Positions 1 through 13,144 of a stretch of DNA of 20,184 bases are shown piece after piece. The notes beneath the pieces were generated by a model that saw nothing but the letters and a program-made list of their open reading frames with translations, did not search any database and was not told the DNA's origin. Position 1 is the stretch's first letter, and each line of letters opens with the position of its first letter. Location of the stretch: the IMG/VR virus record IMGVR_UViG_3300025120_000748, positions 1 through 20,184 of that record, one strand, 5' to 3'. The translations under genes were made by a program, and so were the position numbers. Origin of the DNA: a virus.

Positions 1-21
1 CATGATCAGCAGTCGCACGGG
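1..21 (+). repeat. HDQKTHG motif, copy 1 (truncated by window edge)
   Basis: Encodes HDQQSHG. The first six residues of the 13-residue motif lie outside the window. It is followed by SWATGRAG, which matches TWATGGAG after copy 4. Confidence 0.8.
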
Positions 22-996
22 AGTTGGGCGACGGGTCGTGCTGGCGCGATCGCGAACTCGTCTGTGACGGGGGAGCCGTCGGGGATCACGTTGGCTGACA
101 TGGTTGAGATTCTGGATGACCCTGCCGCTTTCGGGTTTGAGCCTGATGGGTTGCCGTTGAGATACGAAGGTGATGAATCGAAATTTGTCGGGGATTTGCA
201 GAGGGCGGTTGTTGACGGGCACGTCATTCGCGAGGCAAGACAGGACGAGCAGTTTAGGCGAGCCGCTGAACTTACTGATGGACAGAAAGATGATCTTGTG
301 GATTACTTTGAGACTATCCGTAATGAGGGAACGGTTTTCGTGGCAGCCCACCCGCTTCACGCCGCACAAATAATTGAATTGGGGGAGTTCGATACGGTCT
401 TTGAGACTAATACGTCAAACGGCACAGTCAATTACGAGGCGCGTCGTCGTGAGGAGTTCGCGTCCCATGACCTGCACCCGAACGTCGACCCGGACCTGCG
501 TCCCGTTTACGGTTACGTCGCTTTCGACAATCCGGTAGTAAAGTCAGTAGACCAATATGGGAGCGTGCGGTTTGAGTTGAAGCCAGAGGTGAAAGAACGC
601 ACCACGATGACTGATGGTGACTCTCTTGGTTCTAAGGCTACGCCGATCCCGATGTCAGGTGATCCGATAACACAGCGGGAGGCCGTGGGTGGGTCTTTGG
701 GCTGGCAAAGTATGTCTGGACAAATGCTGGATGAGGTAAACGCAGCCGGGGCGTATTTCCCCTCGATCTTAGATGAGTCGTCACCGCAACTGCGTTTTCC
801 TCGCGGCGAGACAGCAATAGCCAACATTATTGACCGAACGGGCGTTGGCTCGACTCGTTACATTGAGGCGCAAGTAAAGGGCGGTGTGAAGATGGACGAC
901 GTCGCACGGATACACGTCGACGGTGCTTTCGTCATGGGAGATGTTGTTGTGGCTGCCCAAGAACGTGGCATCGAGATCGTGTACCACGAAGAATAA
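1..996 (+). CDS. HDQKTHG-motif protein with DUF3626/ADP-ribosyltransferase-like domain (5' partial)
   Basis: The frame is open from base 1, so the gene begins left of the window; the GTG at 64 is an internal Val codon. The first visible residues (HDQQSHGSWATG) are the end of the histidine-rich motif repeated five more times downstream, and they resemble the copy at 2840-2878, which continues THGTWATG. The C-terminal half has the pattern RPVYGY, then YGSVRFELKPEVKERTT, then GDSL, then RYIEAQVKGGVKMDDVARI. I associate this with DUF3626-like phage and bacterial proteins and, more loosely, with ADP-ribosyltransferase folds (a late E-x-Q motif). The family call is from memory of motif patterns and is tentative. 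There is no signal peptide or membrane segment in the visible part. A 63-residue ORF follows after 15 bases. Probable role: virion-packaged effector or domain of a larger portal/MuF-type polyprotein. Confidence 0.7.
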   Translation, partial: HDQQSHGSWATGRAGAIANSSVTGEPSGITLADMVEILDDPAAFGFEPDGLPLRYEGDESKFVGDLQRAVVDGHVIREARQDEQFRRAAELTDGQKDDLVDYFETIRNEGTVFVAAHPLHAAQIIELGEFDTVFETNTSNGTVNYEARRREEFASHDLHPNVDPDLRPVYGYVAFDNPVVKSVDQYGSVRFELKPEVKERTTMTDGDSLGSKATPIPMSGDPITQREAVGGSLGWQSMSGQMLDEVNAAGAYFPSILDESSPQLRFPRGETAIANIIDRTGVGSTRYIEAQVKGGVKMDDVARIHVDGAFVMGDVVVAAQERGIEIVYHEE

Positions 997-1011: not shown

Positions 1012-1203
1012 ATGGACATGCGACCCGCGCAACCGGGAGAAACGATCGCGTACCGAGCCGACGGTGCGACACTTGTCTTTGACTACAACAAAGACGACTT
1101 GGATTGGGGTCACATCAACATGCCGAACGGTACGAGCGGTCGGGAGGCTCCCTTAGTGAGCCTGCTGGTGCGTGGTGGTTGGACGGCTGAGCCGAGTGAC
1201 TAG
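1012..1203 (+). CDS. small hypothetical protein, 63 aa
   Basis: A 63-residue ORF between two HDQKTHG-motif genes. I prefer the ATG at 1012, because the purine-rich AAGAGAGG ends 8 bases upstream; the in-frame GTG at 1006 would leave almost no spacing. The sequence is acidic and soluble-looking (MDMRPAQPGETIAYR at the start, LVSLLVRGGW near the end), with no membrane segment, cysteine cluster or recognised domain. Its stop codon overlaps the likely GTG start of the next ORF, so the two are probably translationally coupled. A role as an accessory or immunity partner of a neighbouring effector domain is possible, but nothing in the sequence shows it. Confidence 0.6.
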   Translation: MDMRPAQPGETIAYRADGATLVFDYNKDDLDWGHINMPNGTSGREAPLVSLLVRGGWTAEPSD

Positions 1204-4200
1204 CGAGGTGATCCGGTTCGCTCCGGGGTTGAAGCCTGTCCTGAAACATCAGCAGGGTGGGCATGATCAGAAGACGCACGGGCAGCGTGCTGGCGCGGGT
1301 GATGATCGTCCCGCGTTGAGGTTCGATAATCCTGATTATGAGCCGTTCGATTTGCCGTCTGGTTGGACTGAGCGTAGTTACTCAAATATTCAGGCCGACG
1401 TGGAGTACAGGCTGAATAGGACCGCTGAGGAACGAGGAACACCGGACCCTGAGTATGCACGGGAGTTGAGCGCCGAGATTGCGTCTTACACATTTGAGTA
1501 TGACGGCGGTAATGGAACAAGGGTAAGTGTTTACCTGATGGATACTGCTAGCAAATCGCCCGACCCCGAGACTATGACCACGATGCTCAAACGCATAGAT
1601 ACATTACAAGAAGACTTTCCCGTCAAAGACCTCGAAGTGAATTTCGCTAACTATCAGTTCAACGCACTAGATTTGCCTGCTGATAACGGTGGTTTAGTTA
1701 TGCAAGGATCAAAAACAATCCACCTGCGACCGGCCTTCTCTCAAAAGTTAGACGGCGTCATGGTGGAGGACTCAGGTAATCCTCTACGCGACCAATTCAT
1801 GCCTAGTAGAAAAACAGTTACTCAGGGTGAGTACGTTCTGGCGCACGAGTACGGTCATGTGAACGATCGGCGTAGCAACTCCCGACGTTTCAGTGATGCG
1901 GGTGATGGTAAAGATTCGAGGGGACTCAGAAACAGTACGCATATTTTCGGCGAACAAATAACGGAAGCGAATGTCGATTTCAAGCGAAGCGAGTATTCCA
2001 ACTCGAACGAAGGGGAACAGTACGCTGAGGCGTTCGCTGAGTACGCGCTAACCGGCGGTACGACCGATATCGGTTATGTGCAGGCGTATGCAGAAAAGTA
2101 TGATTGGGGTAGAAACTTGGAGAAGGCTGTCGATGATTTAGGCGACGACGGCGACAAAGTTATTTTCGTTGACACGTTCACAATGAACCCGCCCCCCTAC
2201 ATCATTGTGCGCCCGAAGCCTGCTGTCGTGAAGCACCTCGGCGTAAAGCATGACCAGAAAACACACGGTCGCGGGTCAAGCGTTCGCGCTCCGTTCTACG
2301 ACGACCTAGAAGACAGTCGTAGGGAAGCAATCGAGTACCTGACAGGGGAACGTCTATTCCCCCCGTCGTACAGCGCCGAGGGCGTCAGGCCACCAACGAT
2401 AACGATGAGCGACTCATTCAAGAACAAGGTCAACGCAGTTCGCAAGAAGGTGAAAGCGTGGGGCGCGGAGCGTGAGAGGCGGGAGTTAGCGGAGATGACA
2501 CCTAGCGAGGTGGCTGAGTTGGCTGCCGTGAATCAAAGCCGGGGCGCGAAGCGGGAGGGGCCGAGAAGCCCGTCATCGTGGGAGGGGCTTGTCCCGTCGA
2601 CGTGGGTGAATCCTTTCGCCGAGCCTGCTATGGCTAAGGCCGCAGATAACGTGTTACGCATCCTGTACCGAGTTTTCAAGGATGTTGTGGATGAGGAAGT
2701 TTGGACGGCGTTGGTGATGGACCCGCGTCCGTTGGATGAGTTGGACGGCCCGCTGGGTGATTTGCTTGATGACATGCTGGATGCGGTCGCGCCGAAGCCT
2801 GCTGTCGTGAAGTTCGCTCCGGGGTTGCGTCCGGTGTTGAAGCATCAGCAAGGCTCGCATGATCAGAAGACGCATGGAACTTGGGCTACTGGCGGCGCTG
2901 GTGGTGACTTTAGTGAGTGGGGGTCGCGTGCTCCGCAGATTCGTGAGATCGCTGAGGTCGCTCCCCCGTTAGCCGAGTTGGGGAGGCTCATGGCTGACCC
3001 GTATGACGCGATCTCGCTGAGAACGGATGACCTTATCGCGGATTTGGTTGAGGAGAGAAAGGACTTGATTGAGTCTTTTCCACCGGATGTCACGATGGTA
3101 AATCCAGAAGACGTAGATGTCTATTCTGACTCCGAGAAAGAGTTTCTTAGACAACAGTCTTTAGATTTCTTTTACGAATACGGTGACGACTTTCCTGATG
3201 CAGGCACAAAATATGATGCTTTACGCGACTACATGAGGCCGACGGCTAATTTTGAGTTTGTGAAGGAAAGTTTGAGTGATGAAGACATGCGACGCCTGCG
3301 AGATCGAGCACAGGGGCTAGTCGAGAGGGAAATGATTGGATCGCTTACGCCGGGGATGAAGGCGGTGTTTGGGATATCCCATCCGGTGACGCTTTCTGAT
3401 GGATCATCAAACGTCATGGAGGTGATGGTTGAGGACGTGACATGGACCGGAGGGCTAGGCAGCGAAAGGCCGACGGTCCAAGTGCTAATGGATGTTTACA
3501 ACAACGACGGATACATTATTGCTTCGGGTGTGCAGAGAGCATTTCGGTTAGGTACAGACGGCAAACTAGAAGTAGAGAATGTTTACCTAAAGATCGGGGA
3601 CGACGCTTACAGGGGTAAAGGGTTCGCGACTGTTTTCAATGAACGTGCCTACGACGCTTACATATCTCAGGGAGTGGAGAGCGTCACGGTCGGTACTGCT
3701 TGGGACGGTGGTTTCGTGTGGGCGAATAAGGGATTCGCGTGGGATGAAGCATCACCACAATCGAACATGCAGACTGCTAGTGATGCGGTGCAGAAAGTTT
3801 TGCGAGACTCACGGTCCTCTGCGTCAACATTAGAGCGTGCCGCAGTCATGTTGGATCAAGTGTCGACACAACAATCGCGATCCGTTCCTGATCTGAGCGA
3901 AATGCCGACACCTATGGAGATCGCGATGCTCGGTTACAGGGATCAAGGCACAGGTGCGTTTGGCAGCATCGAAACAACGACGTGGCCCGGTAAGACAGCC
4001 CTCTACGACGCTAGATGGAAAGGCCGTAAAGAGTTGACACCTGAGAATCTTGGCGGCATCGCTCGCTCGAAGGCAGACATGCGTCGCCCGTCAGAGGTAC
4101 CGGGTCAGAAACCGCTATTCGATAAGAATCCGGTCGTGCAGCAGCCAAGCGCCGGGACCGCAGGGGGAAGGCAAAGCCTTGACGAGGAGGTCATGGCGTT

Positions 4201-4378
4201 GCTTCGACCCATCGGTAAGGCGAAGAAACTGTCGTATTGGGACAAGATCGAGCAGCAGGCAGAGTTCTACGAGAAGTGGATCATGGAGACAGGTCGCGGG
4301 CTTGAGGAAGAAGACCCTGACTCGATGGATGATTTCTTCGCTGCCGCTGTCGAGGCTATGCCGTGGCTCGTTGAGTAG
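1196..4378 (+). CDS. multi-domain polyvalent protein: HDQKTHG motif + Zn peptidase + unknown + GNAT-like domain
   Basis: About 1060 residues; numbering here is from GTG 1196, whose start overlaps the preceding stop. GTG 1208 and GTG 1172 are alternatives. Residues 17-29 carry KHQQGGHDQKTHG. A zinc metallopeptidase follows: HEYGH at 217-221 and YAEAFAEY around 277-284 supplying a plausible third ligand Glu 278. Motif 2 is at 346-358, then about 190 charged residues I do not recognise, then motif 3 at 549-561. Residues ~700-860 look like a GNAT acetyltransferase: YRGKGFA at 805-811 fits the acetyl-CoA loop R-x-x-G-x-A, and GGFVWANKGFAWD at ~838-850 is typical of phage GNAT-like domains. The C-terminus contains PTPMEIAMLGY and a charged helical end. 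The domains are joined by repeated linkers (PKPAVVK twice; FAPGLxPVL twice). Known family behaviour: such domains occur in phage polyvalent proteins delivered with DNA. Inferred role: packaged effector acting early in infection. Confidence 0.78.
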   Translation: MTSEVIRFAPGLKPVLKHQQGGHDQKTHGQRAGAGDDRPALRFDNPDYEPFDLPSGWTERSYSNIQADVEYRLNRTAEERGTPDPEYARELSAEIASYTFEYDGGNGTRVSVYLMDTASKSPDPETMTTMLKRIDTLQEDFPVKDLEVNFANYQFNALDLPADNGGLVMQGSKTIHLRPAFSQKLDGVMVEDSGNPLRDQFMPSRKTVTQGEYVLAHEYGHVNDRRSNSRRFSDAGDGKDSRGLRNSTHIFGEQITEANVDFKRSEYSNSNEGEQYAEAFAEYALTGGTTDIGYVQAYAEKYDWGRNLEKAVDDLGDDGDKVIFVDTFTMNPPPYIIVRPKPAVVKHLGVKHDQKTHGRGSSVRAPFYDDLEDSRREAIEYLTGERLFPPSYSAEGVRPPTITMSDSFKNKVNAVRKKVKAWGAERERRELAEMTPSEVAELAAVNQSRGAKREGPRSPSSWEGLVPSTWVNPFAEPAMAKAADNVLRILYRVFKDVVDEEVWTALVMDPRPLDELDGPLGDLLDDMLDAVAPKPAVVKFAPGLRPVLKHQQGSHDQKTHGTWATGGAGGDFSEWGSRAPQIREIAEVAPPLAELGRLMADPYDAISLRTDDLIADLVEERKDLIESFPPDVTMVNPEDVDVYSDSEKEFLRQQSLDFFYEYGDDFPDAGTKYDALRDYMRPTANFEFVKESLSDEDMRRLRDRAQGLVEREMIGSLTPGMKAVFGISHPVTLSDGSSNVMEVMVEDVTWTGGLGSERPTVQVLMDVYNNDGYIIASGVQRAFRLGTDGKLEVENVYLKIGDDAYRGKGFATVFNERAYDAYISQGVESVTVGTAWDGGFVWANKGFAWDEASPQSNMQTASDAVQKVLRDSRSSASTLERAAVMLDQVSTQQSRSVPDLSEMPTPMEIAMLGYRDQGTGAFGSIETTTWPGKTALYDARWKGRKELTPENLGGIARSKADMRRPSEVPGQKPLFDKNPVVQQPSAGTAGGRQSLDEEVMALLRPIGKAKKLSYWDKIEQQAEFYEKWIMETGRGLEEEDPDSMDDFFAAAVEAMPWLVE
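1244..1282 (+). repeat. HDQKTHG motif, copy 2
   Basis: Encodes KHQQGGHDQKTHG, preceded by FAPGLKPVL. The His residues fall at motif positions 2, 7 and 12. It precedes the zinc peptidase domain. Confidence 0.9.
2213..2233 (+). repeat. 21-bp exact direct repeat, copy A
   Basis: Encodes PKPAVVK directly before motif copy 3. It is identical at the nucleotide level to 2792-2812. Confidence 0.85.
2231..2269 (+). repeat. HDQKTHG motif, copy 3
   Basis: Encodes KHLGVKHDQKTHG, preceded by PKPAVV. It is the most divergent copy in its first half (HLGVK instead of HQQGx) but keeps all three His. It precedes an unrecognised region. Confidence 0.85.
2792..2812 (+). repeat. 21-bp exact direct repeat, copy B
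   Basis: Identical to 2213-2233 and encodes PKPAVVK shortly before motif copy 4. Conservation at silent positions points to recent duplication or recombination at the linker. Confidence 0.85.
2840..2878 (+). repeat. HDQKTHG motif, copy 4
   Basis: Encodes KHQQGSHDQKTHG, preceded by PKPAVVKFAPGLRPVL. That combines the linkers seen separately before copies 2 and 3. It precedes the GNAT-containing part. Confidence 0.9.
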
Positions 4379-4444: not shown

Positions 4445-6871
4445 GTGACTGATACTGCGACCCGACTCACGGGACTCAGCGACGATGATCTTCTCAGCCT
4501 CCACAAGAGGCTTGACGCTAGAGACATTGAGGCACCGGCTGTTGTCGAGGCTCATCACCTCGCCTCGACGGAGATCGCTCGTCGGGGGTTGAGTCACGGT
4601 CACACGGATGATGAATGGTCGAAGGCAGCCATTGAGACGCAGGTAATCGAGGTTGACTCCCCTGATGACATTGAGGCTCCCGCTGGCATGGAGAAGGCGT
4701 GGGGGGCTGCTTTAGCGAACGGCGGGACGGTTTCTGTTTTCTTGACCGTCGACGGGTACGTCTTGAAGGCAGACCCGACGGTGTCCGACGTTCACGTCCC
4801 GACGATCATGGGTGGGAAGAAACGGAAGCCTTTAGAGAAGACGATCCGTGAGGAGGACGGCAAGTTCGTCGTCTACTCGGAGGACATGAGCCGCAAGTTC
4901 GGAACCTACGAGAGTCGCGATGAGGCCGAGGAGCGTCTGCGTCAGATTGAGCGGTTCGCTAAGGCTGAGTCGTACTCGATCCCTGAGAGCGTGCAGTCAG
5001 CCGCTAAGCAGGGGTTGGAGTGGATCGCCGACGGTAAAGCAGGTAGCGGGTTCACGAGCACAGGACGGAACAGGGCTAATCAACTCTCTGCTGGTGGGAG
5101 CGTGTCTCGGGCGACCCTCGTGAAGATGCGGGCGTGGTTCGCACGGCACGCTGTCGATAAGAAAGCGAAAGGGTGGGGCGATAAAAGTAACCCGACGCCG
5201 GGGATGGTCGCGTGGTACGCATGGGGCGGTAATCCGGGTAGGTCGTGGGCTAATGACGTGCTGGGTCGAGTTGAGAAGCGTGCAGCGCCGGAGGCTGTGA
5301 CTGACCTCGGGGTGAACACGGAGAACCGTCAGTACGCGATCGACGAATACATGTACGGGCCGATGAACCCCGAGGAGCCGGGATCGTATTGGGAAGACCT
5401 CGGTGAGGTGTGGGGGGTTGAGGCTGAGACGGCGATGACTACGCGGTGCAGGAATTGTGCTGCGTTCAATCAGACTCCCGAAATGATTGGGCAGATCGAG
5501 GATGCCATTGGTGAGGCTGGGGAGAAAGTCGTCGCGGCAGCGGACATCGGCTATTGCGAGTTATTTGAGTTCAAGTGTGCGGGTGCTCGTGCTTGCGCGG
5601 CGTGGATCGGTGGGGGGCCGATCAAAAAGCATCAGCAGGGCAAGCACGACCAGAAGTCTCATGGGCGTCGCGCTACGGCTTTGGAACCTGCCGTGGCTGA
5701 CTCCATCATTAGTCAGACGATGGAGCAGGGTGGCTTGACGGTGAGCATGGTTGACGGCTCGACGCCTCCGAGCGGTTACATGGTCGCGAGGACTGAGGGT
5801 GTGAAGCCCGCGATCGTGGAAGCCTCTGAGTTCTATGACTCTGAGGCGGGTCCGAAGGCCCTTGGATCGTTCCTGAAAAACAACAGGGAACAGTTGACCG
5901 GGGGTGACTATCTAGGGGTTTGGCATGAGGTAGACTCGGGTAAAGTGTTCTTGGATGTTGCTCAGAACGTGTCAGACCGTGCGACTGCTGAGAGAGTTGG
6001 TCGTGAGCGTAATCAGATAAGTATTTGGGATGTAAGTCAAGGTGAGGAGATTGAGACAGGTGGCACAGGAGAAATCAGTAAATCCGATCCAATCGGTGAG
6101 GCTGCCGGACCTCTCGGAGATGACGGACGAGGAGATCGACGCTTACGCAGCGGAGATTTGGCAGAAGATTCAGAAGTAGAGAAACATCAGCAGGGTAAGC
6201 ACGAGCAGAAAAGTCACGGGCGGGGCACAGCGAGTGTTGACCTACCCCCGATTAGAGACAAAGAGCCGACCGCTGAGAGGTCACCGGAGTCTGTGGAGGC
6301 CGCTAGGCGGCTTCGCGCTGAGGCAGTTGCCGCTGAGCCGGAGTTCACGTCGATGATGGTGGATGTCGTGTCGGAGAACGGTGGTCGCCTCGAACATCTT
6401 GATCATCGCATCAAGACGACGGATTCTTTGGCTCGCAAGATTCAGTTGAAGGCTGATGAACACAACGTCAGCGTCGATGAGGCTAGGGGCTTGATCGGCG
6501 ACAGCGTCCGGTACACGTCAGTCTTCCCTGACGCTGATTACGTCCAAGGCACGCAGTCGATGGTCGATGCTTTGCAGGCAGACGGCTACGACGTGCGGGT
6601 GAAGGACTATTGGTCGATGACTGATGACCCGTACAAGGGAGTCAACATCAAGGCTCAGAAAGACGGCTTGATGATTGAGTTGCAGACGCACACTCCGGGC
6701 AGTCTTGCCGTCAAGGAGGGCAAGATGCACAAACTGTACGAGCAGTACCGTTCGGAGAAAACACCGCAACGGCAGGCGCAGTTGAGGGATGAAATGATGC
6801 AGGCATCGGAGGAGATTCCTCAGCCTCCGGGTGTCGGTCAAGGTGCCTTCGGTGGAGTGGGGGAGGAGTAA
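4445..6871 (+). CDS. multi-domain polyvalent protein ending in RelA/SpoT-type (p)ppGpp synthetase domain
   Basis: About 808 residues; I prefer GTG 4445 because TGAGGA sits 5 bases upstream, while ATG 4439 would touch it. Domains in order: ~141-172, a small phage domain (FGTYESRDEAEERLRQIERF); ~179-280, a phage-associated helical domain (WIADGKAGSGF ... ARHAVDKKAKGW ... AWYAWGGNPGRSWA); 335-384, a cysteine cluster C335-x2-C338 ... C371-x6-C378-x5-C384, probably metal binding; motif KHQQGKHDQKSHG at 395-407; ~408-550, a phage domain of unknown function (GYMVAR ... YLGVWHEVDSGKVFLDVAQN); motif KHQQGKHEQKSHG at 580-592; ~610-790, a RelA/SpoT-like domain. The last has R655-x-K657-x3-S661-x3-K665, D686 in DSVRYT, YKGVNI, and E745-L-Q-T-H, the residues expected for pyrophosphate transfer from ATP to GDP/GTP or another acceptor. 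No HD hydrolase domain is present. The prohead protease starts 3 bases after its stop. Confidence 0.8.
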   Translation: MTDTATRLTGLSDDDLLSLHKRLDARDIEAPAVVEAHHLASTEIARRGLSHGHTDDEWSKAAIETQVIEVDSPDDIEAPAGMEKAWGAALANGGTVSVFLTVDGYVLKADPTVSDVHVPTIMGGKKRKPLEKTIREEDGKFVVYSEDMSRKFGTYESRDEAEERLRQIERFAKAESYSIPESVQSAAKQGLEWIADGKAGSGFTSTGRNRANQLSAGGSVSRATLVKMRAWFARHAVDKKAKGWGDKSNPTPGMVAWYAWGGNPGRSWANDVLGRVEKRAAPEAVTDLGVNTENRQYAIDEYMYGPMNPEEPGSYWEDLGEVWGVEAETAMTTRCRNCAAFNQTPEMIGQIEDAIGEAGEKVVAAADIGYCELFEFKCAGARACAAWIGGGPIKKHQQGKHDQKSHGRRATALEPAVADSIISQTMEQGGLTVSMVDGSTPPSGYMVARTEGVKPAIVEASEFYDSEAGPKALGSFLKNNREQLTGGDYLGVWHEVDSGKVFLDVAQNVSDRATAERVGRERNQISIWDVSQGEEIETGGTGEISKSDPIGEAAGPLGDDGRGDRRLRSGDLAEDSEVEKHQQGKHEQKSHGRGTASVDLPPIRDKEPTAERSPESVEAARRLRAEAVAAEPEFTSMMVDVVSENGGRLEHLDHRIKTTDSLARKIQLKADEHNVSVDEARGLIGDSVRYTSVFPDADYVQGTQSMVDALQADGYDVRVKDYWSMTDDPYKGVNIKAQKDGLMIELQTHTPGSLAVKEGKMHKLYEQYRSEKTPQRQAQLRDEMMQASEEIPQPPGVGQGAFGGVGEE
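5627..5665 (+). repeat. HDQKTHG motif, copy 5
   Basis: Encodes KHQQGKHDQKSHG directly after the cysteine-rich segment and before the GYMV-type phage domain. Confidence 0.9.
6182..6220 (+). repeat. HDQKTHG motif, copy 6
   Basis: Encodes KHQQGKHEQKSHG and precedes the RelA/SpoT-like domain. It is the only copy with Glu in place of Asp after the second His. Confidence 0.9.
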
Positions 6872-6873
6872 TC

Positions 6874-7728
6874 GTGCATTGTGAGTATTACAAGGGCGTA
6901 GACGAGTTCGATGAGACGTTCCGTGTCCTGTACCGGCTGTTCGATCCGGTTAGTGAAGACTTTGGCGAGTTCCGGTGGACGCCGAACGGTTGGGTTCCGA
7001 CTGAATCGGTGATGTATCAGTTGATCAACGATCCTGACTCGATCCGCAAGATCACCGAGGATGAGGCGAAAAAGTTAGTTCCTGAGGCGTTCGCGACTCT
7101 GGTCTCGAAGCAGGTAACGGAACGCATGTTCACTCTCGGGCCGATGTATGTGCCTAACGTGAAAGACGCTCACGCTGAGTGGACGGACCCGGAGGAGTTG
7201 CAGAAAGCGGTTTGGGAGTACGTCCAAAAGGGTGACCGGCGTATCCGCTTGCAGCACGATAAGGATGTCGTCGCGGGCGAGTGGTTGGAGATCATGGCGT
7301 GGCCTTACGAGGTTGAGGCTCCGATCCTGATGAAAGACAGTTCGGAGGGGTCTATGAAGTTCCCGCCGAACACGGTTTTTCTAGGCGTGAAGTGGGAGCC
7401 GTGGGCGTGGGACATGATCAAGGAAGGGAAACTGCGCGGGTACTCGATCGGTGGGCGGGCCGAGCGGCTCTTAGCGGACCTTCCCGAGGAGTACGTCGGT
7501 AAGGCTCAGGCTCCGTTCGAGGACGCTATTCGCATTGAAGCGGAAGATTTTGTCGCGCCTGAGGTCGTTGAAGAAGTCGATTTAGAGCAGCGGATCGCGG
7601 CGGCAGTCGCCGAGGCCGTCAAGTCAATAAACCCTGTGGTGAACGTCGTTATGCCGGAGGATAAGCCGAAAGTGCGTAGAGTAGAGCGGGACGCCCACGG
7701 AAACATCTCGCGAGTTATTGAGGAGTAG
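6874..7728 (+). CDS. prohead maturation protease, XkdF-like
   Basis: 284 residues from GTG 6874, with a GGGGAGGAG ribosome binding site about 6 bases upstream and only 2 bases after the previous stop. Two blocks match the XkdF-type prohead protease pattern: RLQHDKDVVAGEWLEIMAWP (His 128) and WDMIKEGKLRGYSIGGRAERL (Ser 191). His 128 and Ser 191 are my candidates for the catalytic pair, by analogy to herpesvirus/HK97-type serine proteases. Before them lie about 110 residues I do not recognise, and the C-terminus is acidic and helical. Its expected job is to cleave scaffold and other internal proteins during capsid maturation. Its position directly after the HDQKTHG-motif ORFs makes those proteins possible substrates. 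Confidence 0.72.
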   Translation: MHCEYYKGVDEFDETFRVLYRLFDPVSEDFGEFRWTPNGWVPTESVMYQLINDPDSIRKITEDEAKKLVPEAFATLVSKQVTERMFTLGPMYVPNVKDAHAEWTDPEELQKAVWEYVQKGDRRIRLQHDKDVVAGEWLEIMAWPYEVEAPILMKDSSEGSMKFPPNTVFLGVKWEPWAWDMIKEGKLRGYSIGGRAERLLADLPEEYVGKAQAPFEDAIRIEAEDFVAPEVVEEVDLEQRIAAAVAEAVKSINPVVNVVMPEDKPKVRRVERDAHGNISRVIEE

Positions 7729-7733
7729 AAGGT

Positions 7734-8096
7734 ATGGCTGGAATCGTAAATGCTGGAAAGCATTTGATGTTGGCGGGTTTCTCTGGAACGGCTGTTCATT
7801 CAAGCCTCCACACGGCTGACCCCGGATCGGATGGTTCTAGTGAGGTGTCGGGTGGCTCGCCTGCCTACACTCGTGAGTCGATCTCGTGGGCTAGTCCGTC
7901 GAGTGGAGCGGTGGCGAGTAACTCGAACATAGTTTTCGATGTGCCTGCGAGCACGACGATCACGCATCTTGGTTATTGGTCAGCCTCCTCCGGCGGCACT
8001 TTTTATGGGTCTCGCGCTCTCGACACAAATCAGACGTTCGCTACTCAGGGCACTTACACGATTAGTTCAGGGAACCTTACTGAAACTGTGTCGTAA
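7734..8096 (+). CDS. putative virion surface/decoration protein, 120 aa
   Basis: 120 residues from ATG 7734, five bases after the protease stop. It is small, beta-rich and low in charge, with the pattern LHTADPG ... EVSGGSPAYTRESISW ... FDVPASTTITHLGYWS ... GTYTISSGNLT. I recognise this as a common phage structural protein usually found near head or fibre genes, without a characterised function. Its stop TAA shares one base with the ATG of the next gene, so the two are coupled. It may be a capsid decoration or fibre-base protein. Confidence 0.65.
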   Translation: MAGIVNAGKHLMLAGFSGTAVHSSLHTADPGSDGSSEVSGGSPAYTRESISWASPSSGAVASNSNIVFDVPASTTITHLGYWSASSGGTFYGSRALDTNQTFATQGTYTISSGNLTETVS

Positions 8097-8881
8097 TGGC
8101 TGTCGGGCTTTTCACGCTTGATAGCGCCACTCTCGGTGTTCTCGACACGAGCGTCCTCGGTGGCGACGGAACGGGTTTCGTCACCGGATCGGTTAGCAGT
8201 TCCGGGTCAGTCACGGGTTCGGTTGGTTTCTCCGGTTCGGTATCGGGGAGCGTAAGTTCCTCTGGATCGGCGACCGGCGCTGTCGGCTTCAAGGGCACAG
8301 TAAGCGGTTCTGTCGCATCCTCGGGCAGTTCGACGGGGACAGTTGCCTATCAGGGCACCGTAAGCGGCTCTGTCGCGTCTTCTGGATCGGTTTCCGGCTC
8401 TGCGGCACGCAACGGCTCGGTAACCGGCTCGACGGCCTCTAGCGGCGTTGCAGCAGGCTCGCCGCAGTTGAGCGGGTCGATCTCCGGCTCTGTCACCTCA
8501 TCGGGCACCGTGTCAGGTGCCGAGGGCGCTACGGGGAGCGTCTCGGGTTCTGTCGCGAGTTCGGGGTCAGTCACGGGTGTTTTCGGCGCGGTCGGCTCCG
8601 TATCCGGCGTGACTACATCGACGGGGTCAGTTGTCTCCGCTGATCGGTCTGGAAGCGTCTCAGGTAGCACGTCGTCGTCGGGGACGGTGGTCGGAGTTGC
8701 TTCCGGCGGTGCTCCTGCTGCCGGGGGCGGTGGCTCCCTGCCGATCGTTGTCGCGATGCCTAAAGTGTCGCCGTTCGGTTTTGTTTGGGGAGTGTCACAG
8801 TCGGCGGGGTCGATTGAAGGATCGCGTCGTGTACGGGAGGATGAGGACGTCGAGTTACTGGAACTACTCGGAGTCCTGTGA
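8096..8881 (+). CDS. Gly/Ser-rich repeat protein, probable fibre or surface structural protein
   Basis: 261 residues, starting on the overlapping ATG at 8096. After about 26 residues it contains nine units of about 20 residues (8174-8710) of the form G-[S/T]-V-[S/T]-G-S-V-x-S-S-G-S-x-x-G followed by five variable residues. One unit is 19 long. The regular alternation of Val with Gly/Ser suggests an extended beta structure such as a beta-helix, or a flexible stalk. The last ~65 residues are different: a Gly-rich linker, then VSPFGFVWGV and an acidic tail ending EDVELLELLGVL. No enzymatic motifs are visible. Next to a decoration-like gene and the protease, a head-surface or fibre role is most likely. 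Confidence 0.72.
   Translation: MAVGLFTLDSATLGVLDTSVLGGDGTGFVTGSVSSSGSVTGSVGFSGSVSGSVSSSGSATGAVGFKGTVSGSVASSGSSTGTVAYQGTVSGSVASSGSVSGSAARNGSVTGSTASSGVAAGSPQLSGSISGSVTSSGTVSGAEGATGSVSGSVASSGSVTGVFGAVGSVSGVTTSTGSVVSADRSGSVSGSTSSSGTVVGVASGGAPAAGGGGSLPIVVAMPKVSPFGFVWGVSQSAGSIEGSRRVREDEDVELLELLGVL
8174..8710 (+). repeat. nine tandem ~60-bp coding repeats
   Basis: Units start GFVTGSV, GSVSGSV, GTVSGSV, GTVSGSV, GSVTGST, GSISGSV, GSVSGSV, GSVSGVT, GSVSGST. Period is 60 bases (one unit 57). Units 3 and 4 are the most alike. The protein period is clearer than the DNA period, so the array is not very recent. Confidence 0.85.
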
Positions 8882-10831: not shown

Positions 10832-10878
10832 GCGGGTTGTCGTTCAACGCACCAGCGTTGCACGAGGCCCGCTTTTTT
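10832..10878 (+). terminator. strong intrinsic terminator
   Basis: GCGGG (10832-10836) pairs with CCCGC (10868-10872), TCGT with ACGA inside, and CAACGC (10845-10850) with GCGTTG (10855-10860) around an ACCA loop, with a few mismatches between. Six T follow (10873-10878). It closes the zinc-ribbon/basic-protein cassette. The scaffold ribosome binding site (10884-10890) begins five bases later. Confidence 0.85.
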
Positions 10879-10893
10879 CATGTAGGAGGACAG

Positions 10894-11742
10894 GTGGGGC
10901 GACCTGCTAAGAAGATGGTTAATCTGTCGATCGAGGAGACCTCGGGGGTAGATCACCCGGCTCACCTACACGAAGGTTGGCTCGTGATGAAAGCGGCTTC
11001 GCAAGAAGATGTTGAGACGACTTTGAGTCGCGAAGCGAACCCTAGTGAAGAAGAAATGCAGCCGATCCTGAAAGAGACCGAGGAGGTCAACATGGAAACG
11101 CAGGATGAGCAGACTGAGGTGCAAGAGGCCGACGTCGAGAAGGCAGATAAGCCTTCCTATGAAGAACTCCAAGAGATGCTGAACAAGGCTAACGCTCGCA
11201 TCGAGGAGATGGAAAAAATGATGGGCGACAAGCCTAAGGAGGAAAAGGAAGACGACGATCTTCCCGAGTTCCTTCGTAAGGAAGCACCTGAGGGTGTTCG
11301 TAAGGCTTTCGAGTCGATGCAGAAGGCTGCGGAAGACGCGCAGGCTCAGGCTGAGGCAGCCGAGGCTGAACTCCGCAAGGAACGCTCGGAGCGTGCCGAC
11401 GCTGACTCGGTCGTGAAGGCTCGCGAATCGTTCTCCAATCTCGGCCTTGATGCTGAGGCAGTTGGTCCCGCTCTGCGGCGTCTGGCTGAAACTGATGAAG
11501 ACTTAGCGAAATCCGTTGAGGATGTTTTGACCGCCGCTAACGCGAAGGTCGAGTCCGCTGACTTGTTCGCTGAGATCGGGAAGTCTGCCCGCCCTGCGGG
11601 TAGCGCCTACGAGAAGGCTGAAGTTATGGCTAAAGCCGCCGTTGCTGATGGTAAGTCAGCGACATACGAACAGGCGCTCTCTGACGTGTTCACGTCTGAC
11701 AGCGACCTTTACATGTCCTACCTCGCCGAGCAAGGAAAGTGA
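10894..11742 (+). CDS. capsid scaffolding protein
   Basis: 282 residues from GTG 10894, preceded by AGGAGGA (10884-10890). The longer open frame upstream runs through the terminator and is rejected as a start. The N-terminus has KMVNLSIEETSGVDHPAHLHEGWLVMKA, a segment common in phage scaffold/protease proteins. A long acidic, Glu/Lys/Gln/Ala-rich coiled-coil region follows (about residues 50-190), then a compact Ala-rich end (KAAVADGKSATYEQALSDVFTSDSDLYMSYLAEQ). It is expected to direct assembly of the procapsid and then be removed, probably by the protease at 6874-7728. It lies directly upstream of the decoration and major capsid genes. Confidence 0.78.
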   Translation: MGRPAKKMVNLSIEETSGVDHPAHLHEGWLVMKAASQEDVETTLSREANPSEEEMQPILKETEEVNMETQDEQTEVQEADVEKADKPSYEELQEMLNKANARIEEMEKMMGDKPKEEKEDDDLPEFLRKEAPEGVRKAFESMQKAAEDAQAQAEAAEAELRKERSERADADSVVKARESFSNLGLDAEAVGPALRRLAETDEDLAKSVEDVLTAANAKVESADLFAEIGKSARPAGSAYEKAEVMAKAAVADGKSATYEQALSDVFTSDSDLYMSYLAEQGK

Positions 11743-12166: not shown

Positions 12167-13144
12167 ATGCCACAGCCAACGATCAGCGACGTACATGTTG
12201 ACGCGATCCTGACTAACATCTCCGTTGCTTACATGCAGCGTGCGGAGAACATGATCGCGGACAAGGTGTTCCCCGTCGTTCCTGTTGATAAGAAGTCGAA
12301 CAAGTATTTCACCTACACCAAGAGTGATTGGTTCCGTGACGAGGCTCAACGCCGCGCTCCGGGCACCGAGTCCGCTGGTGGCGGTTACAACCTGTCGACT
12401 GACACTTACAGCGCCGACGTTTTTGCGTTCCATAAGGACGTGGACGATCAGACGCTTGCCAATGCTGACACTCCCTTGAATCCTCTCCGTGAGGCTGCCG
12501 AGTTCGTCACCGCCCGCTTGATGCTGCGCCGTGAGGTTCAGTTCATTACGGACTTTATGACGACCAGCGTGTGGGCGAATGAGAAGACCGGCGTGGCTTC
12601 AGGCCCGTCTTCCTCACAGTTCATTCAATGGAGTAACTACAGCACCTCCGATCCGATTGAGGACATTGAGGAAGCAAAGGAAGACATCTTGTCGACCACG
12701 GGCTACGAGGGCAACACTCTCGTTCTCGGGTACCAAGCCTTCCGGCAACTCAAGAATCACCCGGATTTCGTCGACCGCTACAAATACACCACTTCCTCGG
12801 TTATCACCGAAGAAATGATGGCACGTTTGTTGGGTGTCGACCGGATTCTCGTCGCGAAGTCCGTGAAGAACGGCGCTGAGGAAGGTCTCGCAGACTCGTT
12901 CGCGTTCAACTTCGGTAAGGCTGCTTGCCTGCTGCACGTTGCACCGAACCCCGGTCTGATGACTCCGAGTGCTGGCTACATCTTCGCGTGGACGGGTGTA
13001 TCGGGTGGATTGGGCGCTACCGTGGGAACCTCACAGTTCCGCATGGAGAGCCTTCGTGCCGCTCGCGTTGAGGCTGAGTTCGCTTTCGACAACAAGGTTG
13101 TCGCTTCCGATCTCGGTTACTTCTTCGCTTCCTGTGTCGCTTAG
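12167..13144 (+). CDS. major capsid protein (HK97-like fold)
   Basis: 325 residues from ATG 12167, with AGAGGAGA upstream. The size, the position between decoration and connector genes, and the pattern support this: an N-terminal helix (AENMIADKVFPVVPVDKKSNKYFTYTKSDWFRDEAQRRAPG), a long alpha helix (PLNPLREAAEFVTARLMLRREVQF), TGYEGNTLVLGYQAFRQLKNHPDF, then LLGVDRILVAKSVKNGA and a closing TSQFRMESLRAARVEAEFAFDNKVVASDLGYFF. It lacks a long N-terminal delta domain, fitting the separate scaffold gene. Confidence 0.88.
   Translation: MPQPTISDVHVDAILTNISVAYMQRAENMIADKVFPVVPVDKKSNKYFTYTKSDWFRDEAQRRAPGTESAGGGYNLSTDTYSADVFAFHKDVDDQTLANADTPLNPLREAAEFVTARLMLRREVQFITDFMTTSVWANEKTGVASGPSSSQFIQWSNYSTSDPIEDIEEAKEDILSTTGYEGNTLVLGYQAFRQLKNHPDFVDRYKYTTSSVITEEMMARLLGVDRILVAKSVKNGAEEGLADSFAFNFGKAACLLHVAPNPGLMTPSAGYIFAWTGVSGGLGATVGTSQFRMESLRAARVEAEFAFDNKVVASDLGYFFASCVA

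Follow-up and report, generated by a model that had tools for sequence, protein, structure and literature searches.

In a linear virus record of 20,184 bases (the window, meaning this whole stretch of DNA), we found that the gene directly upstream of an XkdF-type prohead protease ends in what is, by sequence and structural model, a complete RelA/SpoT-type pyrophosphokinase (Rel) domain. We lean, somewhat beyond an even balance, toward reading this domain as a putative toxin that, together with an immunity partner, is encoded within the phage head genes. The basis by sequence and model is the intact domain, its cargo context, an interchangeable C-terminal slot, and a matched extension on XkdF that is related to IapK, the immunity protein of Apk2 toxins. 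RelA/SpoT domains are already known from phage polyvalent and MuF proteins, as described previously (PMC5512222). What is new is the setting, with its motif-linked cargo string, polymorphic slot, and slot-matched XkdF extension.

The Rel domain and its gene neighborhood

The window carries the following features.

1..996, + strand: P0004, 3' end of an ORF that is cut by the window edge, opening with an HDQQSHG motif and then a DUF3626 (ART-like) domain
1172..4378, + strand: P0001, cargo ORF of 1068 aa, with a HEYGH zincin-like module (about 1349-2203), an unknown module (about 2270-2839), and a GNAT-like module (about 3050-4051), assigned by family clustering only, apart from the HEYGH motif
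1244..1282, + strand: linker motif KHQQGGHDQKTHG in P0001
2231..2269, + strand: linker motif KHLGVKHDQKTHG in P0001
2840..2878, + strand: linker motif KHQQGSHDQKTHG in P0001
4439..6871, + strand: P0002, head-region carrier ORF of 810 aa, its last ~190 residues being the Rel domain
Modules of P0002, + strand, by profile and family matches: phrog_2859-type N-terminal module (about 4445-5278), CxxC "FeS"-type module (about 5294-5623), phrog_17808 domain (about 5702-6070), then Rel
5627..5665, + strand: linker motif KHQQGKHDQKSHG in P0002, in a stretch of pLDDT <30
6182..6220, + strand: linker motif KHQQGKHEQKSHG in P0002, in a stretch of pLDDT <35 directly 5' of the Rel domain
About 6287-6856, + strand: RelA/SpoT-type alarmone synthetase (SYNTH) domain of the Apk2/EAS group, by sequence, fold, and tree
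6874..7728, + strand: P0003, XkdF-type prohead protease ORF (Pfam Peptidase_S78_2, 3.5e-12)
6874..7098, + strand: XkdF N-terminal extension of ~75 aa, a putative immunity domain that resembles IapK by hhalign profile match
7099..7467, + strand: XkdF protease domain proper (Pfam)
10837..11742, + strand: scaffold-like acidic/coiled ORF preceding the capsid gene (phrog_13547, 1.1e-60, no function on record)
12167..13144, + strand: major capsid protein (phrog_1005, 1.1e-101)

P0004 matched DUF3626 in Pfam at 2.9e-11 and shares 70.5% and 55% identity with the C-terminal portions of ORFs that contain MuF in two other loci, L123 and L138. It would thus be the C-terminal end of a MuF-cargo protein, and therefore the window appears to begin within a MuF-XkdF cargo block. 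The start of P0003 lies 2 bases past the P0002 stop. The capsid protein is closest to those of Arthrobacter phages (58.7% identity to Arthrobacter phage Ottawa, the nearest), which suggests an actinobacterial host. An ORF at 8096-8881 is built of repeated GSVSGSVSSSGSVTG units, and a similar repeat stands behind a phosphodiesterase in gp77 of Microbacterium phage ValentiniPuff.

The original prediction, a complete synthetase domain with all hallmarks in a virion-region ORF, was borne out: the domain is in frame, its motifs are as described, the surrounding genes are head genes with XkdF next, and no hydrolase domain was found in P0002 or elsewhere in the window. Its span of 6182-6871 does contain the domain, but base 6182 is the first base of the KHQQGKHEQKSHG linker motif and the folded part runs from about 6287 to 6810. 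The ATP site reads RIKTTDSLARK (R 6407, K 6413, S 6425, K 6437), followed by DSVRYT (D 6500), YKGVN (Y 6632), and ELQTH (E 6677). On alignment the ATP-binding R, K, S, and K are retained, together with the catalytic Asp, the G-loop Tyr, Gly, and Asn, and E-x-Q-x-H-T.

A phmmer search of the PDB with the Rel domain gave one significant relative, 8VX3 (SaSAS/SaEAS, E 5.7e-15), and a profile of 22 relatives reached 8VX3 at 1.2e-33 and Tas1 (6OX6) at 6.4e-5; since the latter match is weak, an origin from Tas1/T6SS was rejected. The domain also matched phrog_7625, "head morphogenesis," at 1.7e-29. P0002 had no Pfam match at all, including none above cutoff to RelA_SpoT (PF04607), from whose model this family has diverged, and Pfam, NCBIfam, and PADLOC gave it no name. 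A hit to NCBIfam XopAD (2e-27) reflects the Rel-like stretch of XopAD and falls far under that family's 2000-bit cutoff, so membership was discarded. The AlphaFold (AF2) model of the domain, built with 22 alignment rows, had a pLDDT of 94.6 and a pTM of 0.87, and its fold is RelA/SpoT-like: Foldseek placed 8VX3 first (TM 0.87, E 2.2e-11), followed by RelP (about 0.62), SAS1, SpoT, and CapRel. The full-length P0002 model was poor (pLDDT 58.5) and was used for domain limits only; in it, both linker motifs have a pLDDT of about 25 to 35 and the Rel domain is confident.

Each catalytic residue (R, K, S, K, D, RY, Y.G.N, E.Q.HT) is kept in 38 to 41 of the 41 related domains from uncultured viral contigs (the HDQ group, see below), two rows of which are truncated. 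The dN/dS ratio was 0.157 between the window and L001 and 0.11 to 0.13 for three other pairs, as under purifying selection. Because the catalytic residues are conserved and dN/dS is low, the enzyme is very probably active.

A motif-separated string of predicted cargo domains with a polymorphic slot

The motif KHxxGxH[DN]QxxHG occurs six times in the window, the first copy cut by the window edge and the sixth reading HEQ, and every copy precedes a domain: DUF3626, HEYGH zincin-like, the unknown module, GNAT-like, phrog_17808, and Rel, respectively. We searched IMG/VR with a DNA pattern for the motif and obtained 102 stretches with some 450 copies. The spacer from KH to HDQ is 4 residues (238 copies), 2 residues (205), or 5 residues (8), never 1 or 3, and 448 of 448 copies are on the coding strand. 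In the 19 loci with both MuF and XkdF, 117 motifs lie between the two genes, 11 after XkdF, and 0 before MuF; as most loci were fetched by the motif itself, the number of loci is no frequency, and the position relative to MuF and XkdF is unselected. The Lys and His codons of the motif are used about evenly, so it is conserved at the protein level. A DNA recombination site was ruled out, as synonymous codons vary freely.

The segments that follow the motif belong to families including ADP-ribosyltransferase (Pfam ADPrib_exo_Tox), DUF3626, Arr-ms, zincin, GNAT, and Zeta, and several such effector-like domains per polypeptide were observed in the virion gene block of the window. By its sequence context, the Rel domain is one predicted cargo in a motif-separated string of effector-like domains between MuF and the XkdF prohead protease. 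The HDQ motif string is not described in the literature we searched, which covered few subscription papers.

The place directly before XkdF is polymorphic by sequence comparison and is predicted to hold Rel, a Zeta toxin, or nothing. The usual order of the carrier is N-module, motif, ParB-like domain, motif, Rel, and stop, followed by XkdF; the window carrier has the CxxC module and phrog_17808 domain instead of the ParB-like domain. The carrier of L145 (N-module, ParB-like, Rel) matches phrog_2859 from end to end (residues 1-734 to 1-724, E 3e-297). In L109, L113, L155, L188, L191, L095, and L097, a Zeta toxin (PF06414, 2.9e-24 and 5.6e-28) fills the place of Rel, and in L099, L111, L143, L148, L159, and L161 the slot is empty and the carrier continues in frame into XkdF (Pfam 5.9e-12).

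Some other ORFs of these regions deserve mention. A small ORF after XkdF, possibly scaffold-like, carries one HDQ motif and an acidic tail ending in ...DDP[RK]WMDDMDI (L170:7907-8179, L177:9614-10210, and some 24 other loci). Actinomycetia phage DSL-LC01 has a very large head-region ORF without the HDQ motif (L007:1-9277, 3289 aa) that opens with RRDRYGKFA; neighboring ORFs contain similar R-D-x-x-GKF strings, perhaps an analogous linker. At L115:1677-8027 (- strand), a cargo ORF of 2117 residues has several domains and modules ending in D-x-D-x-DG strings.

An IapK-like extension on the prohead protease

The Rel-type XkdF extension, of ~75 residues, has the pattern MRYFVK...LYRF...W...W.P...L..G..D.EEITE..A..FP.AF and takes the position of IapK in Apk2 phages, directly downstream of the toxin. 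Against a profile of 12 IapK sequences, hhalign gave a probability of 91% and a score of 36.2, with 55 columns spanning both. None of 200 column shuffles reached this score (maximum 17.5), and the reversed profile gave 0.3%. Segments cut from the other domains of those contigs scored 14.3 or less, except one from XkdF (29.4) that contains the end of the extension. The match needs the family profile, as window-like rows alone gave a nonsignificant 8.7%; without those rows the score was 37.0. We take the extension to be a probable remote relative of IapK, and the reading in which there is no immunity at all was given up after this match.

The extension changes with the slot. Among 52 loci, Rel occurs with the IapK-like type in 35 of 35, Zeta with a type of its own in 8 of 8, and an empty slot with no extension in 9 of 9, with zero exceptions; these counts include near-copies and reduce to 13 Rel, 6 Zeta, and 6 empty loci at 90% XkdF identity. 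The Rel type is thus present in all 35 Rel loci with XkdF and absent from the 17 others. The Zeta type was ruled out as an IapK relative (probability 0.5%) and had no convincing match in Pfam and no match among phage records. In L175, the ORF directly following Zeta begins with this domain, and a ParB-like domain stands before XkdF; therefore it tracks the toxin, not the protease. The sequence pattern points to a virion-borne polymorphic toxin with an immunity domain fused to the maturation protease, an arrangement not described in the same literature search, limited as it was to few subscription papers.

On the fuller proposal we are evenly divided: in a head polymorphic toxin, the protease-fused immunity would swap with the toxin (IapK-like for the alarmone synthetase, a different domain for Zeta, and no domain for an empty slot), and the same polypeptide would neutralize the cargo, bring the protease to it, and release it at maturation. 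In these apparently virulent phages, the system would serve all the motif-linked effectors encoded from MuF to XkdF. XkdF is also joined to another domain in L194:13592-14713 (Arthrobacter phage Salgado gp18) and L193:12142-13281, where an "RNA ligase" is a 2H/LigT phosphoesterase plus an XkdF protease (Pfam 2.7e-10 and 1.9e-14); the annotation omits the protease, and phrog_14859 inherits the name.

An alternative, which we regard as possible though unlikely, is that the extension serves to dock or target the protease and the synthetase needs no antidote, as it is made late, is inactive in the polyprotein, or works in a cell that the phage lyses; the enzyme would still act on the next host. 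This fits the gene content. Of the 18 HDQ-Rel records, six of which exceed 60 kb though the records may be fragments, none has a tyrosine integrase or serine recombinase, versus an integrase in 13 of 18 MuF-Apk2 records, so that the HDQ-Rel phages are apparently virulent. Likewise, no stand-alone IapK or Aph1 gene was found near the HDQ-Rel domains in the fetched loci, versus 78 to 80 of about 82 MuF loci. However, a plain carrier-docking domain should stay unchanged when Zeta replaces Rel, while the extension resembles IapK both by profile and by location, and the type of extension goes with the type of toxin in every locus.

No Aph1-like gene was found in the window, which excludes the region upstream of MuF, or in the fetched loci of Rel-bearing kin. 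A gene for HD_4, a small alarmone hydrolase-like protein, occurs in 2 of 18 whole Rel records and in four other array contigs; examples are L106:167-667, L108:6965-7483 (- strand), L117:4694-5197, L129:795-1310, and L168:5183-5821, those in L106, L117, L129, and L168 lying a few kb upstream of MuF.

Likely product, role, and known systems

A tblastn search of annotated phages with the Rel domain returned 42 records (32 to 40% identity) from phages of Streptococcus, Pasteurella, Mannheimia, and Aggregatibacter/Haemophilus; those matched genes that carry an annotation are mostly called minor-head or head-morphogenesis proteins. By sequence, we assign these matches to the Apk2 toxins, polymorphic toxins that combine MuF with an adenosine 3'-pyrophosphokinase in prophages of S. 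pneumoniae, M. haemolytica, P. multocida, and B. caccae (PMC12226406). One such gene, from Haemophilus phage Aaphi23 (L004:1099-3501), is interrupted by ~330 codons whose ends look intein-like (Cys at the start, ...VSN before Cys) and which its close relative L080 lacks. Uncultured viral contigs, the window included, contain a second group, the HDQ group, which stands apart from MuF-Apk2 in a maximum-likelihood tree (branch support 90/98, in 92% of bootstrap trees, with long branches flagged). The tree places the window domain as the predicted sister of the MuF-Apk2 toxin domain. One genome scan for a bacterial chromosomal parent gave only three loci, all in Bacillota.

The DSVRYT and YKGVN strings of the window contain RYT and GxN, the Syn2 and Syn3 signatures of Apk2 (PMC12226406). 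The Syn4 position is Tyr in 82 of 82 MuF-Apk2 domains, Thr in the window, and L, V, F, I, or T across the HDQ group. The characterized members of MuF-Apk2, the predicted sister group of the domain, produce nothing but (p)ppApp (PMC12226406), which makes (p)ppApp more likely as the product than the ppGpp of a classical stringent response. The clues to the acceptor are split, as RYT and GxN favor adenylates versus SaEAS, which has RYT and YKGxN as in the window, makes both products, and uses GTP better than ATP (PMC12691689). We accordingly dropped the specific name (p)ppGpp synthetase from the original prediction.

That Rel makes mainly (p)ppGpp, giving a stringent-like response in the infected cell, as the original prediction suggested, or aiding the exclusion of other phages, is an improbable but serious alternative. 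The guanylate preference of SaEAS, the closest structure, speaks for it, as do VpEAS and AaEAS, which make (p)ppGpp only (PMC12691689), and an alarmone-like host shutoff was proposed for polyvalent proteins by Iyer 2017 (PMC5512222). Against these stand the (p)ppApp-only activity of the nearest phage kin, Apk2 (PMC12226406), and kin that lack integrases and give no sign of expression in lysogens; we found no evidence for exclusion of competing phages. It is very unlikely that Rel acts like FaRel2 or CapRel and pyrophosphorylates the CCA ends of tRNA: the fold search reaches both enzymes, but at a TM of about 0.4 to 0.5 versus 0.87 for SaEAS, and the sequence groups with nucleotide-acceptor enzymes. 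Less probable still is a cargo string aimed at eukaryotic grazers, the "Trojan horse" role proposed for ADP-ribosyltransferases of freshwater phages (PMC6802176). The arrays do contain ART domains (ADPrib_exo_Tox, DUF3626, Arr-ms), but alarmone synthetases and Zeta proteins poison bacteria, the cargo sits between MuF and the prohead protease, and a matched IapK-like domain is sensible only against a bacterial target. A degenerate or structural, inactive domain is hardly credible: activity is a prediction from sequence, but the catalytic residues are all invariant and dN/dS is 0.11 to 0.16.

Under the preferred toxin-immunity reading, late expression would let the extension bind and silence the synthetase, as IapK blocks Apk2 (PMC12226406), and perhaps also dock the protease onto the cargo. 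The cargo would then enter the prohead, where maturation cleavage within the disordered motif linkers would release the Rel domain. The freed domain would enter the next cell along with the DNA, an injection step that the original prediction had raised and that we grade as plausible. In the new host, it would make (p)ppApp, possibly also (p)ppGpp, and drain ATP, and host growth and biosynthesis would stop, to the benefit of the phage. The interpretation of the original prediction is supported in part; the polymorphic slot, linker repeat, MuF-XkdF cargo string, and IapK-like domain were absent from it.

MuF-linked toxins have so far been described from temperate phages, where their immunity genes are free-standing; one report restricts them to such phages (PMC5576092). 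The window would extend this toxin chemistry to phages that are apparently virulent and would link a putative immunity domain to the maturation of the capsid, which makes testable whether MuF-type toxins travel as capsid cargo and act on the next host. It also offers a predicted function for the C-terminal third of phrog_2859, an unannotated family whose synthetase part is newly assigned here, and suggests that the ART domains of HDQ arrays are head cargo and that KHxxGxHDQKxHG may be a cargo tag or protease site.

Compared with known systems, the window protein shares with Apk2 a homologous C-terminal synthetase, RYT and GxN, a position in the head genes, and an immunity-type sequence directly downstream. 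Unlike Apk2, it has no MuF by Pfam, starts with a phrog_2859-type N terminus, and has KHxxGxHDQKxHG linkers, and its kin carry MuF as a separate upstream ORF; the Syn4 Tyr is replaced, Aph1 does not adjoin, and IapK, a free protein in Apk2 phages, is represented by a remotely matching sequence fused to XkdF. SaEAS (PDB 8VX3) is the best PDB match in fold and sequence, with the same motifs, but is Sec-secreted by Streptomyces (PMC12691689), whereas the window domain sits on a phage head carrier from which delivery would follow. Tas1/Apk1 has a homologous SYNTH domain but is delivered by PAAR/T6SS, and toxSAS modules, unlike the window domain within a head-gene cargo protein, are free bicistronic toxin-antitoxin pairs outside virion genes. 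The polyvalent proteins of Iyer 2017 are likewise multidomain, combine ART, metallopeptidase, ParB-like, and RelA/SpoT domains, and are predicted to enter with the DNA; in the passages covered, that account describes neither an HDQ linker repeat nor a prohead-protease immunity domain (PMC5512222).
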